From Mucilaginibacter sp. UBA4741 (GTDB lineage Bacteria; Bacteroidota; Bacteroidia; Sphingobacteriales; Sphingobacteriaceae), in contig DHIR01000182.1 in assembly GCA_002403905.1 (NCBI GenBank), positions 11,207 through 37,761 of the forward strand: a DNA stretch of 26,555 bases. The letters run 5' to 3'. The translations under genes and the position numbers were made by a program. The notes under the pieces are model-generated. The model did no database searches. It worked only from the letters and a program-made list of their open reading frames with translations, and was not told the DNA's origin. Within the stretch, counting starts at the first letter, position 1. Every line of letters begins with the position of its first letter. Shown piece after piece: positions 21,533 to 26,555 of the stretch.

Positions 21533-21844
21533 ATGCTTCACCCAATATTACAGGCACAATTACCACTGGTTGTGAATTTGTTTAAAGATCATAAAATAAA
21601 AAGCGCTTATGCTTTTGGTTCGGTGGTTAGTGATAAATTTAATGAGGAAAGTGATATCGATCTACTAATAAATTTTGAAGATAGTGTTGAGGCATTAGAA
21701 AGAGGGGAAATATGGTGGAATTTACATGATACCTTGAGAGATATGTTTAATAGAGAAGTTGATCTGTTAATAGAAAGTACTTTAAAAAACCCTTACCTTA
21801 TTGAAGATATCAATGAAAAGAAGCAATTAATTTATGCAGCGTGA
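21533..21844 (+). CDS. mntA: MntA-type nucleotidyltransferase antitoxin
   Basis: A 103-residue minimal nucleotidyltransferase with the defining GSX10DXD motif (Gly29-Ser30 ... Asp41, Asp43) in YAFGSVVSDKFNEESDIDLLINF. In characterised HEPN-MNT pairs the protein adds AMP to a tyrosine of the HepT toxin, neutralising its RNase activity. The third acidic residue of the family is probably Asp77 or Glu75 in REVDLLIE. It overlaps hepT by 11 bp, as expected for a coupled pair. Codon use is AT-richer than the housekeeping neighbours, suggesting acquisition by transfer. Confidence 0.9.
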   Translation: MLHPILQAQLPLVVNLFKDHKIKSAYAFGSVVSDKFNEESDIDLLINFEDSVEALERGEIWWNLHDTLRDMFNREVDLLIESTLKNPYLIEDINEKKQLIYAA

Positions 21845-22169
21845 AGTGAAAAAATATCTTTTTGATATACTAAGCTGTATTGAAAATATTGAAAATTTTA
21901 TAGGTATACCCAAATTATTTCTTGAGTTTAACAAAAACATCATGCTTCAGCAAGCTATTGAAAGAAATTTGGAAATTATAGGCGAAGCAATGAATAATAT
22001 TCTTAAAATATTTCCTGCAATAAATATTACAAGTGGACGCAGAATGGTGGATACCAGGAACAAAATTATTCATGGGTACGATGATATACAGGCAGAGCAA
22101 ATATGGAGTATAATCATCAATCATTTACCTACTTTGAAACTCGAAGTGCAAACATTATTAGAAAATTAA
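21834..22169 (+). CDS. hepT: HepT-like HEPN-domain toxin (DUF86)
   Basis: A 111-residue all-alpha HEPN ribonuclease toxin, partner of the nucleotidyltransferase encoded just upstream. The catalytic RX4HXY motif is intact: Arg75, His80 and Tyr82 in RNKIIHGYD. Upstream helices contain the usual AIERNLEIIGEAMNNI. In related systems Tyr of this motif is the AMPylation site. ATG at 21834 overlaps the mntA stop region by 11 bp. bioB begins 3 bp after the stop, so the module has been placed tightly in front of a housekeeping gene and may share a transcript with it. Whether the toxin cleaves tRNA or mRNA here is unknown. Confidence 0.9.
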   Translation: MQREVKKYLFDILSCIENIENFIGIPKLFLEFNKNIMLQQAIERNLEIIGEAMNNILKIFPAINITSGRRMVDTRNKIIHGYDDIQAEQIWSIIINHLPTLKLEVQTLLEN

Positions 22170-23199: not shown

Positions 23200-23207
23200 T
23201 ATATTTG
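23200..23207 (+). promoter_or_regulatory. -7 box of the antitoxin-yafQ promoter
   Basis: TATATTTG is an exact TAnnTTTG match that ends 3 bp before the antitoxin ATG at 23211. It overlaps a possible TTG start at 23205, which argues for the ATG as the true start and for a leaderless message. Confidence 0.45.
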
Positions 23208-23210
23208 TAT

Positions 23211-23429
23211 ATGGAAACATTAACAATAAATATTCCTGATAAAAAAATAGCCCTTGTAAAACAACTCCTTAAAGAGCTGGGTGTCACAATCAGTACAACT
23301 CAAAAAAAAGATAAAGGATCGGCTAATTCACCTAACGCCTTAACAGCATCAACAATAGAAGATGCTCATAAAGGCATTGGGTTGGGTAAACCTATAACTA
23401 ACATTAATGATTTTGTGAAATCTTTATAA
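23211..23429 (+). CDS. Probable antitoxin of a YafQ-type module
   Basis: A 72-residue protein encoded directly before a YafQ-like toxin, with a one-base overlap of stop and start (TAATG). The N-terminal part (METLTINIPDKKIALVKQLLKELGVTI) is a beta strand plus helix, as in ribbon-helix-helix or Phd-like antitoxins of Bacteroidota. The C-terminal part (IEDAHKGIGLGKPITNINDFVKSL) would wrap the toxin. I chose ATG at 23211 over the upstream in-frame TTG at 23205 because that TTG lies within the -7 box. The role as antitoxin is inferred from position, size and layout; DNA-binding autoregulation is likely for this kind of protein but not shown here. Confidence 0.8.
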   Translation: METLTINIPDKKIALVKQLLKELGVTISTTQKKDKGSANSPNALTASTIEDAHKGIGLGKPITNINDFVKSL

Positions 23430-23710
23430 TGTTTACCTTAATACCCACTAATCAGTTTAATAAAGATATTAAGGCGTTGAAAAAACGCTCTGTAAAAAAT
23501 GCCGGATTTATAATAGATTTTCTAATTGAATTGGAGAAGGCCGGAGTGATAGGTGTTGATAAAAAGCACCGGCCCCACAAACTTTCGGGTAATTATAAAG
23601 ATAATTGGGAAGCCCATATAAAACCTGATCTATTGATCATCTGGTTTGAAATAACTGATAAAAATGAGATCATACTGTTACGGGCAGGCTCACACTCAGA
23701 TTTATTTTAA
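23429..23710 (+). CDS. yafQ: YafQ-family mRNA interferase toxin
   Basis: A 93-residue toxin of the RelE/ParE superfamily, YafQ subgroup, a ribosome-dependent endoribonuclease that cuts mRNA. The residues known to matter in E. coli YafQ have counterparts: His50 (RPHKLSG), His63 and Asp67 (AHIKPD), Arg85, His89 and Phe93 (RAGSHSDLF). One difference is Leu68 where many homologues have Trp after the Asp. The gene is complete and directly follows its antitoxin. Its stop is only 4 bp from the stop of the convergent diiron-protein gene. Confidence 0.92.
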   Translation: MFTLIPTNQFNKDIKALKKRSVKNAGFIIDFLIELEKAGVIGVDKKHRPHKLSGNYKDNWEAHIKPDLLIIWFEITDKNEIILLRAGSHSDLF

Positions 23711-25254: not shown

Positions 25255-25280
25255 TGTGGATAAGAAAAATGTTAATAACC
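25255..25280. promoter_or_regulatory. DnaA-box-like leader motif, copy 1
   Basis: TGTGGATAA is the exact reverse complement of the consensus DnaA box TTATCCACA. It continues as GAAAAATGTTAATAACC, which is repeated with 23 of 26 matches at 26283-26308. It lies 93 bp before the conserved block of copy 1. A role in DnaA binding is inference. Confidence 0.45.
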
Positions 25281-25340: not shown

Positions 25341-25517
25341 TTTTTCTGTTAATAACCCGTTAATAAAAAACCCAAAAAATATTTGCAAAAAGGGGTATGT
25401 GTCCCGATATTGAAATCATCAAGAACGATGTACTTTGACAGCCTTACAGGAATAACAAAAATTGAATCGGGTGAGTTTTCGGACGAACTAAAGATCAAGG
25501 GAAAGCCTGAGTTACAG
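25341..25517. repeat. Tandem repeat block, copy 1
   Basis: From 25348 to 25517 this matches 26386-26555 at a constant offset of 1,038 bp, with weak similarity beginning at 25341. The last 119 bp (from GTGTCCCGATATTG) differ at 8 positions. The second copy runs to the window edge, so the true length of the repeat is unknown and at least 170 bp. Confidence 0.9.
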
Positions 25518-25926
25518 AAAAATGAAAAGTCGAGAGATTTGAAAAAGCATGTAATTAACAAGGTATTACGAGAGTTGCTAATTGTCTACGGAGAATGGTA
25601 ACACAACTAATGACCTTGAAGTAATCAATGTTAGCAAACAATGATCAATTCGGAAAACCTTCTGAATGACGATGTATCAGGTTTGCGCATATAACAGAGG
25701 AGTTGCTGTCCGCAAGGGGAGGAACGGAATCGAGCATCTGCAAAAACAATGTTAAGTCAGAAATTCGCAGGAATGAAGATTGAACCCAGGGTTGGCACTA
25801 ATAACAATGACGAGAGCAGGTCGGTCACTATACACAAAACTTGATGCTTTATAACGGACTACGGTACGATATAGGGTTGAAAACGGGAGATCAAATCGAA
25901 AGACGCGGCTCCCGTTTTTGTTTTTT
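25390..25926 (+). ncRNA. Candidate large structured RNA (copy 1)
   Basis: I propose a transcript of about 0.5 kb starting near the conserved GTGTCCCGATATTG and ending at the terminator at 25881-25926. Within it are foldable stems: AAGGTATTA (25560-25568) with AATGACCTT (25609-25617), enclosing AGTTG / CAACT (25573-25577 / 25604-25608), and ATTCGGAA / TTCTGAAT (25648-25655 / 25660-25667, one G-U pair) around an AACC loop. No protein frame spans the region. I do not recognise it: it lacks the hallmark sequences of RNase P RNA, tmRNA and SRP RNA, and I could not find a group II intron domain V near its end. A relation to an intron, retron or other reverse-transcriptase-linked RNA is possible but not shown; no reverse transcriptase gene is in the window. 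Confidence 0.45.
25881..25926 (+). terminator. Intrinsic terminator of the candidate RNA
   Basis: AAACGGGAG (25881-25889) pairs perfectly with CTCCCGTTT (25909-25917) around a 19-nt loop, followed by a T-rich tract to 25926. No protein gene precedes it on this strand, so it must end another type of transcript. Confidence 0.85.
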
Positions 25927-26032
25927 ATGGGTTTCTGTAATTTGCCCTTAATATTGAAATACCCCAGGCTTTAGCATCTAAATTCTATTATCACCTTTTC
26001 CGATTATCGATTGTTCACTTCACAGTTCATAA

Positions 26033-26146
26033 GGAGACTCCTATGGAGTCATTTAATTTCTTTTAATTTTCTATAAATACGTGGCTCCATAGGAGCTACC
26101 TGTTTATAGAAGAAAATTAATCCGGTAATTTGGCTCCATCGGAACC
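26033..26146. repeat. Three spaced GGCTCC/GGAGCC palindromes
   Basis: GACTCC TAT GGAGTC (26036-26050), GTGGCTCC ATA GGAGCTAC (26081-26099) and GGCTCC ATC GGAACC (26132-26146) recur at 47- to 49-bp spacing. The spacers on each side of the middle palindrome are themselves nearly reverse complementary (TTAATTTTCTATAAA and TTTATAGAAGAAAATTAA), so the whole unit can fold as a long cruciform. It looks like a tandem palindromic intergenic element; the minus-strand 61-codon frame over it reads as repeat sequence. Confidence 0.75.
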
Positions 26147-26282
26147 TCCTAATAATACATTCAATATGTTTAACGCGCCAGTATTTCACGAAAAAATCCC
26201 CCAATATTCCACCAACAATTTCAGCCAAACCCAATTTTTGCGCATTTTTATCCCTTTAAAAAAATCCATTTTTATCAATTTT

Positions 26283-26308
26283 TGTTGATAAGAAAATTGT
26301 TAACAACC
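26283..26308. promoter_or_regulatory. DnaA-box-like leader motif, copy 2
   Basis: TGTTGATAA, one base from the DnaA box complement, followed by GAAAATTGTTAACAACC, repeats the motif at 25255-25280. It lies 103 bp before the second conserved block. Confidence 0.4.
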
Positions 26309-26340
26309 CCGTATATAATCATTGTAAATAATTGATAATT

Positions 26341-26382
26341 AACACTATTTGTAATTTATAGATGTTGAATAGTGTTGTTTTT
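26341..26382 (+). terminator. Terminator-like hairpin in the leader of copy 2
   Basis: AACACTATT (26341-26349) and AATAGTGTT (26368-26376) are perfect 9-bp arms, followed by GTTTTTT. It could end an upstream transcript or act as an attenuator ahead of the second RNA copy. Copy 1 has a different hairpin at the same place (AACCAAA 25277-25283 with TTTGGTT 25309-25315). Confidence 0.55.
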
Positions 26383-26555
26383 TATGTTAGCAACCCGTTA
26401 ATAAAAAACATAAAAAATATTTTGCAGATCGGGTTGGTGTCCCGATATTGAAATCATCAAGACAGACGTACTTTGACAGCCTTACAGGAATAACAAAAAG
26501 TGAATCGGGGGAGTTTTCGGACGAGCTAAAGATCACGGGAAAGCCTGAGTTACAC
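26379..26555. repeat. Tandem repeat block, copy 2 (cut by window end)
   Basis: Matches copy 1 from 26386 on. Its 5' hairpin ATCGGG / CCCGAT (26428-26433 / 26441-26446) is complete, whereas copy 1 keeps only the GGG / CCC part, so copy 2 may be the better preserved RNA. The remainder lies beyond the window. Confidence 0.85.

Follow-up and report, generated by a model that had tools for sequence, protein, structure and literature searches.

The DNA analysed here (the window; 26,555 nucleotides of Mucilaginibacter sp. UBA4741, G000:C100:11207-37761) ends in a non-coding block that is present twice, side by side. The question raised by this locus is what kind of genetic element the block belongs to and with which partner it may act. 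The contig comprises 39,980 bases and is part of a draft assembly (299 contigs, 80% complete).

The tandem block and its genomic context

Alignment of positions 25348-25517 with 26386-26555 revealed 150 identical nucleotides out of 170, without gaps, and 111 out of 119 in the final part of the block, which agrees with the count made in an earlier, sequence-only reading of the window. A repeat search delimited a block of 176 nt (25341-25516 versus 26379-26554; 89% identity) and returned the same pitch of 1,038 bp. The second copy is interrupted by an assembly gap, as a run of N starts directly after the window end. Beyond this gap a further 3′ part of the element, with its own terminator, was identified (L005:1593-1927), and a gene encoding a PIN-PhoH protein starts 80 nt past it. 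Since the fragments on either side of the gap share a stretch of 84 nt of the element, yet are only 87% identical in it, the locus probably carries three copies, with the gap allowing other arrangements. The sequence-only reading had predicted a second terminator past position 26555 and, as a possible neighbour, a reverse transcriptase gene. The terminator is indeed present, but at approximately 26978-27013 (N run as written) instead of 26919-26964, and the gene just downstream encodes the PIN-PhoH protein PhoH2 rather than a reverse transcriptase.

In this genome phoH2 itself is broken into pieces by runs of N. Two other N runs at the locus (L005:2101-2264 and 2648-2763) have identical sequences of 19-24 nt at both flanks, and are therefore probably scaffolding gaps between overlapping pieces. 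The genes flanking the element are an OsmC/Ohr-like gene and phoH2, and no transposase genes are found there. A group II intron or another retroelement RNA was rejected on the basis of these neighbours and of the lack of an Rfam match.

A protein gene was rejected as well. No reading frame is consistently open and, in comparisons of relatives at least 85% identical (pairs that are not independent of one another), none of the 65 indels was divisible by three (62 equal 1 and 3 equal 2 modulo three), in keeping with the earlier remark that the region holds no convincing gene.

Between copies 1 and 2, region 26036-26157 contains small palindromes nested in one another, whose core recurs (CTCCTATGGAG / GGCTCCATAGGAGC); they look like short interspersed palindromes. 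Elsewhere in the window, bioB is flanked by two small gene pairs (21533-22169 and 23205-23710) whose translations, judged by eye, resemble toxin-antitoxin modules of the MNT/HEPN and RelB/RelE types.

Components of the RNA gene

Two models, each built from 31 elements, were used to describe the 5′ (R1) and the 3′ domain (R2) of the element. Both matched copy 1 (131 and 114 bits, respectively), which is itself among these 31 elements. Copy 1 occupies approximately 508 nt of the + strand (25415..25922, with a predicted 5′ end). The 5′ strand of helix P1 (CATCAAG, 25417..25423, + strand) and its 3′ strand (CTTGATG, 25840..25846, + strand) were both assigned from alignment columns with two-sided changes, and P1 joins the two ends of the RNA. 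The strong terminator reported earlier for the first copy corresponds to an intrinsic terminator at 25881..25919 (+ strand, AAACGGGAG...CTCCCGTTTTT). Its hairpin is kept in the 31 elements and covaries among relatives (pair 93-119: AU in 15, GC in 10 and GU in 6 elements); the aligned elements terminate in such an intrinsic terminator. A simple terminator scan did not list the copy 1 terminator on the + strand, probably because the hairpin loop is too long.

A putative -7-like promoter box (CCGATATTG, 25404..25412, + strand), with a TTG approximately 20 nt upstream, precedes copy 1. Boxes of the TAnnTTAG, TAnnTTG, TATATTG or GATATTG type are located just 5′ of P1 in 79 of 83 elements, again with a TTG approximately 20 nt upstream, and resemble the Bacteroidetes promoter consensus. 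Copy 2 is represented in the window by its promoter box and 5′ part (26442..26555, + strand; R1 match G000:C100:37648-37764), cut at the N run.

DnaA-box-like direct repeats were identified on the + strand upstream of copy 1 (TGTGGATAA at 25255-25263; TGTTAATAA at 25270-25278 and 25347-25355), and a similar site (TGTTGATAA, 26283..26291, + strand) upstream of copy 2. Within the genus set, at least one TGTKNAWAA direct repeat is present in the 150 nt upstream of 77 of 81 elements (mean of 2.58 per 150 nt, compared to 0.046 in mononucleotide shuffles), and the same is true of 25 of 26 elements from other genera (mean of 2.23 versus 0.04 after shuffling). No internal direct repeats of at least 14 nt were found in copy 1 of the window.

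Distribution and size classes

A nucleotide search of the family, proposed together with the first description of the block, located the element in 83 of 301 genomes. An exact-pattern scan gave 92 stretches, and the 80 listed, which were used to collect elements, all come from Mucilaginibacter or unnamed Bacteroidetes bins. R1 (E<=0.01) matched 139 of the 400 genomes of the order; by our own count, 99 of these belong to the genus (106 genomes) and 40 to six other genera. R2 was found in 136 of 149 Mucilaginibacter genomes, with at least two matches in 22, so that the duplication described earlier is true of this locus but optional in the genus. Among 295 genomes of the class six were matched by R1, every one within the family, and R2 gave nothing convincing on 30 phoH loci outside the family (best E 0.014). 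In the other genera, R2 was located downstream of R1 on the same strand in all 20 fetched loci, which had been picked by their R1 match and represent 20 of the 40 other-genus genomes. Nucleotide searches detected no plasmid, phage or viral homologues (the last search with an exact pattern only). With so patchy a distribution, a housekeeping RNA is less likely.

The distance from the R1 start to the R2 end defines two main size classes among the 83 elements: 52 elements measure 361-384 nt and 20 measure 604-639 nt, with 11 between them. Copy 1 of the window is intermediate (527 nt by the same measure). These 83 elements exclude 7 of 90 5′ matches that had no 3′ match, and include two (582 and 368 nt) that span the N gap in the genome of the window. 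The long form is extended by approximately 250 nt in its central part. In two long forms (L115:3636-3915 and L122:4055-4328) a motif of 14-34 nt (e.g. ATCAGCGTTAGCAA) recurs in three to four imperfect copies, partly at a pitch of 26-27 nt, which possibly represent several binding sites; TRF analysis of one long form revealed no tandem array.

Open frames in the long forms have a median length of 99 aa, compared to 65 aa in shuffles; 18 of 20 are antisense, with antisense frames of up to 168 aa, and such frames are common to 10 of 29 loci. At 18 of 29 loci (L006-L034) a gene pair matching the radical SAM family TIGR03916 and the putative DNA repair family TIGR03915 is located just upstream of the RNA. 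In a genome of genus g16 that lacks PhoH2 (G083:C1), 13 weak R2 matches are scattered over the genome, and probably represent a repeated terminator-like hairpin.

Comparison with known RNA families

The sequence-only reading could assign the block to no known RNA family, and searches of Rfam 15 led to the same result. The window gave no match at gathering thresholds, nor did copy 1 and one long-form relative at E<=5. For the locus beyond the gap (L005), two chance-level matches were obtained at E<=5, both off the element, and among seven relatives' loci searched at gathering thresholds the only matches were to rRNA and tRNA in L161.

Secondary structure and covariation

The 52 sequences of the short class were folded together with RNAalifold, which gave -94.9 kcal/mol, compared to -29.5 kcal/mol (sd 5.0, lowest -39.0) for 20 column-shuffled alignments and -65.5 for the reverse complement; one of these sequences (368 nt) spans the N gap in the genome of the window, and was folded with its N in place but removed from the set used for mutual information. 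In the predicted structure 90.1% of the cells are paired. This value drops to 34-44% when the partners are displaced by 1-3 columns, and has a mean of 83.9% (maximum 84.6%) after shuffling of the 3′ letters between sequences. In 29 of 82 pairs both sides change in two or more sequences, compared to a mean of 18.4 and a maximum of 23 in 200 letter shuffles, a control that ignores kinship.

A similar result was obtained across genera with an alignment of 20 of the 26 elements, namely those of 340-400 nt. The fold reached -69.5 versus -4.1 (sd 2.5) after shuffling, the paired cells amounted to 89.1% versus 83.2%, and two-sided changes were found in 21 of 57 pairs, compared to a maximum of 15 in shuffles. 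For P1, reading of the alignment by eye revealed two-sided changes between CAAG/CTTG on the one hand and CAAT/ATTG and TTAAG/CTTAA on the other. This cross-genus conservation and these compensating base changes support the earlier suggestion that the tandem copies specify a large structured RNA, which may be regulatory or catalytic.

Folded as a single sequence, copy 1 was not better than its shuffles (z -1.11), and the support for the structure is therefore comparative. When column pairs were ranked by mutual information in a mixed set of 71 sequences, four of the first 20 and seven of the first 60 belonged to the predicted structure (59 structure pairs among 66,430 column pairs). Most of the top pairs fall outside the structure, which probably reflects kinship or cross-genus misalignment. 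The fold of this mixed set (-67.3) lacks helices of the within-genus fold.

Co-occurrence of the RNA with PhoH2

The protein encoded downstream of the element consists of an N-terminal PIN nuclease domain (PF13638, 120.5 bits) and a C-terminal PhoH ATPase domain (PF02562, 164 bits), as determined with one 435-aa stretch of relative L014. The NCBIfam PhoH2 model matches this protein with 245 bits, the cut-off being 680 bits.

PhoH2 (E<=1e-60) was detected in 231 of the 400 genomes of the order. Comparison of the two lists by hand revealed that all 139 R1-positive genomes of the order are within this group; R1 (E<=0.01) matched none of the 169 PhoH2-negative genomes. Apart from G348, in which R2 is present, the 92 PhoH2-positive genomes without an R1 match all belong to other genera, where R1 is weak; R2 retrieved genomes of this kind in another set, made up of 151 genomes of the family. 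In this second set PhoH2 was found in 61 genomes, and R2 in 60 (E<=4e-4) or 75 (E<=0.05). All 60 genomes obtained with the stricter cut-off, which was picked after inspection of the list (the R1 cut-off of 0.01 had been fixed beforehand), are among the 61 PhoH2-positive ones. The 15 genomes with weaker R2 matches (E 6.6e-4 to 0.044, 23-32 bits) comprise 14 PhoH2-negative genomes and G006, and we read these matches as chance or ordinary terminators. G006 is PhoH2-positive, and unfiltered scans of 9 kb around its phoH2 revealed no RNA by either model. In short, an RNA carried by a soil bacterium and by related bacteria was detected only where the RNA-processing protein PhoH2 is encoded as well, which suggests that the two act as a pair.

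Outside the family, PhoH2 was detected in 49 of 60 genomes of the class at E<=1e-30, in some of them via the ATPase domain alone. Since the protein is widespread there without the RNA, the latter is not generally required by PhoH2. Comparison of 58 and 31 PhoH2 proteins with respect to carriage of the RNA revealed no feature unique to the carriers: there was no insertion beyond one column, and the 26 substitutions are of the kind seen between lineages.

The two genes are also absent together within Mucilaginibacter. In six genomes that are 95-99% complete (G111, G146, G195, G210, G276 and G358) neither model detects the RNA at E<=0.01 (G111 has a single R2 match at E 0.044), and all six lack PhoH2. 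In G204, G348 and G171, where the RNA is weak or was missed by one model, PhoH2 is present. Among six less complete genomes without R2, one (G741, 87% complete) carries PhoH2. An rpoB tree was constructed for 29 genomes (G358 yielded no rpoB and was left out). In this tree, G210 groups with positive genomes (98/95), apart from the other four negatives, and the positive G204 is nested among those four (83/84). The pattern of presence and absence requires three changes, at least two of which are forced by well-supported branches, and none of 200 bootstrap trees is compatible with a single change. This pattern may represent joint losses, or include a joint regain.

Linkage of the RNA and phoH2

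Behind the 83 elements, many of whose loci stop too early to show phoH2, 38 distinct phoH2 genes were found to start within 130 nt of the RNA end (at a distance of 54-114 nt). A promoter-like box (TAATTTAG) is located just 5′ of phoH2 in 27 of these 38 close pairs.

In the 60 genomes that carry both genes, a count by hand placed phoH2 downstream of the RNA, on the same strand and within 5 kb, in 44. The genes are divergent in eight genomes (all of genus g4) and unlinked in another eight. The unlinked cases include G101, where 0.8 Mb separate the RNA and phoH2 on one contig, G095, G131 and G130 (one contig, 0.1-0.7 Mb apart), and G062, G025, G026 and G093 (different contigs); in G025, phoH2 lies near a contig end, where a further RNA copy is possible. 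Both R1 and R2 match at the unlinked places in G101, G025 (three places), G026, G130, G095, G062 and G131. The nine g4 cases (the eight divergent genomes and the unlinked G093) are represented by the 3′ domain only, R1 giving E values of 0.64 or 0.97, or no match at E<=1, on five g4 loci.

Among the 20 cross-genus loci, phoH2 was found in 17, in the orientation of the RNA. The remaining three are G311 (phoH2 on another contig), G012 (phoH2 split over two contigs) and G284, in which phoH2 lies approximately 10 kb downstream of the RNA on the same strand, with an rRNA operon in between; the RNA of G284 is located at L161:4663-5061, approximately 2.2 kb upstream of that operon. At two loci (L096 and L113), an opposite-strand gene is situated between the RNA and phoH2. 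In 16 of the 60 genomes the two genes diverge or lie far from each other; the RNA is therefore not just a leader of phoH2. Even with g4 set aside, the seven unlinked cases still oppose a leader as its general role.

Discussion

The block at the end of the window belongs to a distinct, conserved and covarying element with a terminator and a promoter-like box, which is present in one to three copies and is partly independent of linkage to phoH2. We give slightly better than an even chance to the reading, drawn from comparison of sequences, that this element is a structured RNA of approximately 360-640 nt which acts in trans with PhoH2, most likely by binding the protein and holding, positioning or modulating its nuclease/helicase. 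On this reading the RNA would be transcribed, would contact PhoH2 directly, and would control the protein instead of merely being processed by it. Dependence of the RNA on PhoH2 is the simplest account, because the RNA was never seen without PhoH2, and PhoH2 without the RNA is common outside the family; the RNA would then be a ligand that scaffolds, guides or restrains the enzyme. RNase and RNA-unwinding activities have been reported for mycobacterial PhoH2 in the excerpted text of PMC4826407. As the mycobacterial protein is reported to be a growth-slowing RNase checked by an antitoxin protein, a role as a decoy or brake is plausible for the RNA. More tentatively, and as a proposal that we regard as possible but doubtful, the PhoH2 of Sphingobacteriaceae may be an RNA-guided or RNA-scaffolded enzyme that works with a large RNA of its own, of which there are short and long forms. 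The repeated motif of the long forms could in that case offer several binding sites in an RNA-PIN nuclease-helicase machine.

The same distribution might arise if the function of the RNA were unrelated to PhoH2 and the genes were gained and lost together through adjacency alone. A single deletion could remove both where they lie close on one strand (44 of 60 genomes), and PhoH2 exists without the RNA outside the family. However, both genes are retained in the eight unlinked and eight divergent genomes (nine of which rest on the 3′ domain only), and the RNA alone is absent from all 169 PhoH2-negative genomes examined with R1, which makes this explanation rather unlikely. The order of RNA, terminator and nuclease gene, which the 38 close phoH2 genes fit, is also the layout of type III toxin-antitoxin systems such as ToxIN, according to the excerpt of PMC5086642, and would suit an RNA that neutralises a toxic PIN endoribonuclease. 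The slowing of growth by mycobacterial PhoH2, paired with an antitoxin (excerpt of PMC4826407), and the motif copies of the long forms at a partly regular pitch point in the same direction. Nevertheless, the type III systems described in that excerpt (PMC5086642) form one operon under one promoter, whereas the genes studied here do not constitute a single-promoter bicistronic unit: in 27 of 38 close pairs phoH2 is preceded by its own promoter-like box, and 16 of 60 genomes have the two genes in divergent or unlinked positions. The window copy, moreover, has no internal direct repeats, and PhoH2 occurs without the RNA commonly elsewhere and, in the family, in G006. A type III-like system is consequently a distinctly less probable explanation than mere adjacency.

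The proximity of 38 phoH2 starts to the RNA end could also be explained by a giant 5′ leader (attenuator) that acts via terminator read-through. A riboswitch or attenuator forms the 5′ leader of the gene that it controls, and here the arrangement differs in the 16 divergent or unlinked genomes; together with the box before phoH2, the opposite-strand gene in L096 and L113, and the 10 kb and rRNA operon that intervene in G284, this leaves a leader very improbable. We give an equally slim chance to a DNA element in place of an RNA gene, for instance a mobile element or an origin of replication marked by DnaA boxes. The DnaA-box-like repeats upstream of most copies and the presence of at least two copies in 22 of 149 genomes would fit such an element. 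Nonetheless, folding favours the + strand over its reverse complement, searches for matches in viral contigs, phages and plasmids were negative, and the flanking genes are not transposases. GC skew (20 segments per genome) places the locus near the terminus in G168 (G168:C1:3850034) and G183 (G183:C1:1402490), and approximately 0.5 Mb from it in G284, with the origin far away; a replication origin was rejected on these grounds.

Bacteria have few large structured RNAs, most of them with no known function. The element resembles this kind of RNA in size, fold and covariation; it also has a terminator, and would form a transcription unit of its own. OLE, ROOL and GOLLD are likewise rare, large and highly structured bacterial non-coding RNAs, whereas the RNA described here has no Rfam match to any of them, was found only in Sphingobacteriaceae and is linked to PhoH2. 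According to excerpts of PMC11332333 and PMC12286853, OLE forms an RNA-protein complex, and proteins were tied to it by phylogenetic profiling; the text of PMC11332333 makes no mention of PhoH. Mycobacterial PhoH2 (PhoAT) has the identical PIN and PhoH two-domain layout, but its partner is a protein antitoxin of the same operon, whereas here a large RNA gene precedes phoH2. In ToxIN, a non-coding RNA is followed by a terminator and a nuclease gene (excerpt of PMC5086642); the present locus differs in that the window copy has no repeats, phoH2 has its own promoter-like box, and the genes are unlinked in some genomes. Pedo-repair and 6S-Flavo are non-coding RNA motifs of the same phylum that have Rfam accessions, as stated in the excerpt of PMC2864571, and the searched release gave no match to the element at E<=5.

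Searches of the literature on Mucilaginibacter, Sphingobacteriaceae/Pedobacter and PhoH, which covered the main part of mostly freely accessible journal articles, revealed no such RNA, and a term search of the text of a survey of 50 bacterial genomes (PMC11109978) found mention of neither these taxa nor phoH. For a non-coding RNA partner of a PhoH protein we found no precedent.

The RNA described here has a concrete candidate partner that can be tested, derived from co-occurrence across a whole order. Since many Mucilaginibacter hosts are cultured, deletion and pull-down work is feasible. PhoH proteins are widespread and poorly understood, and a dedicated RNA would be a direct handle on the role of PhoH2.
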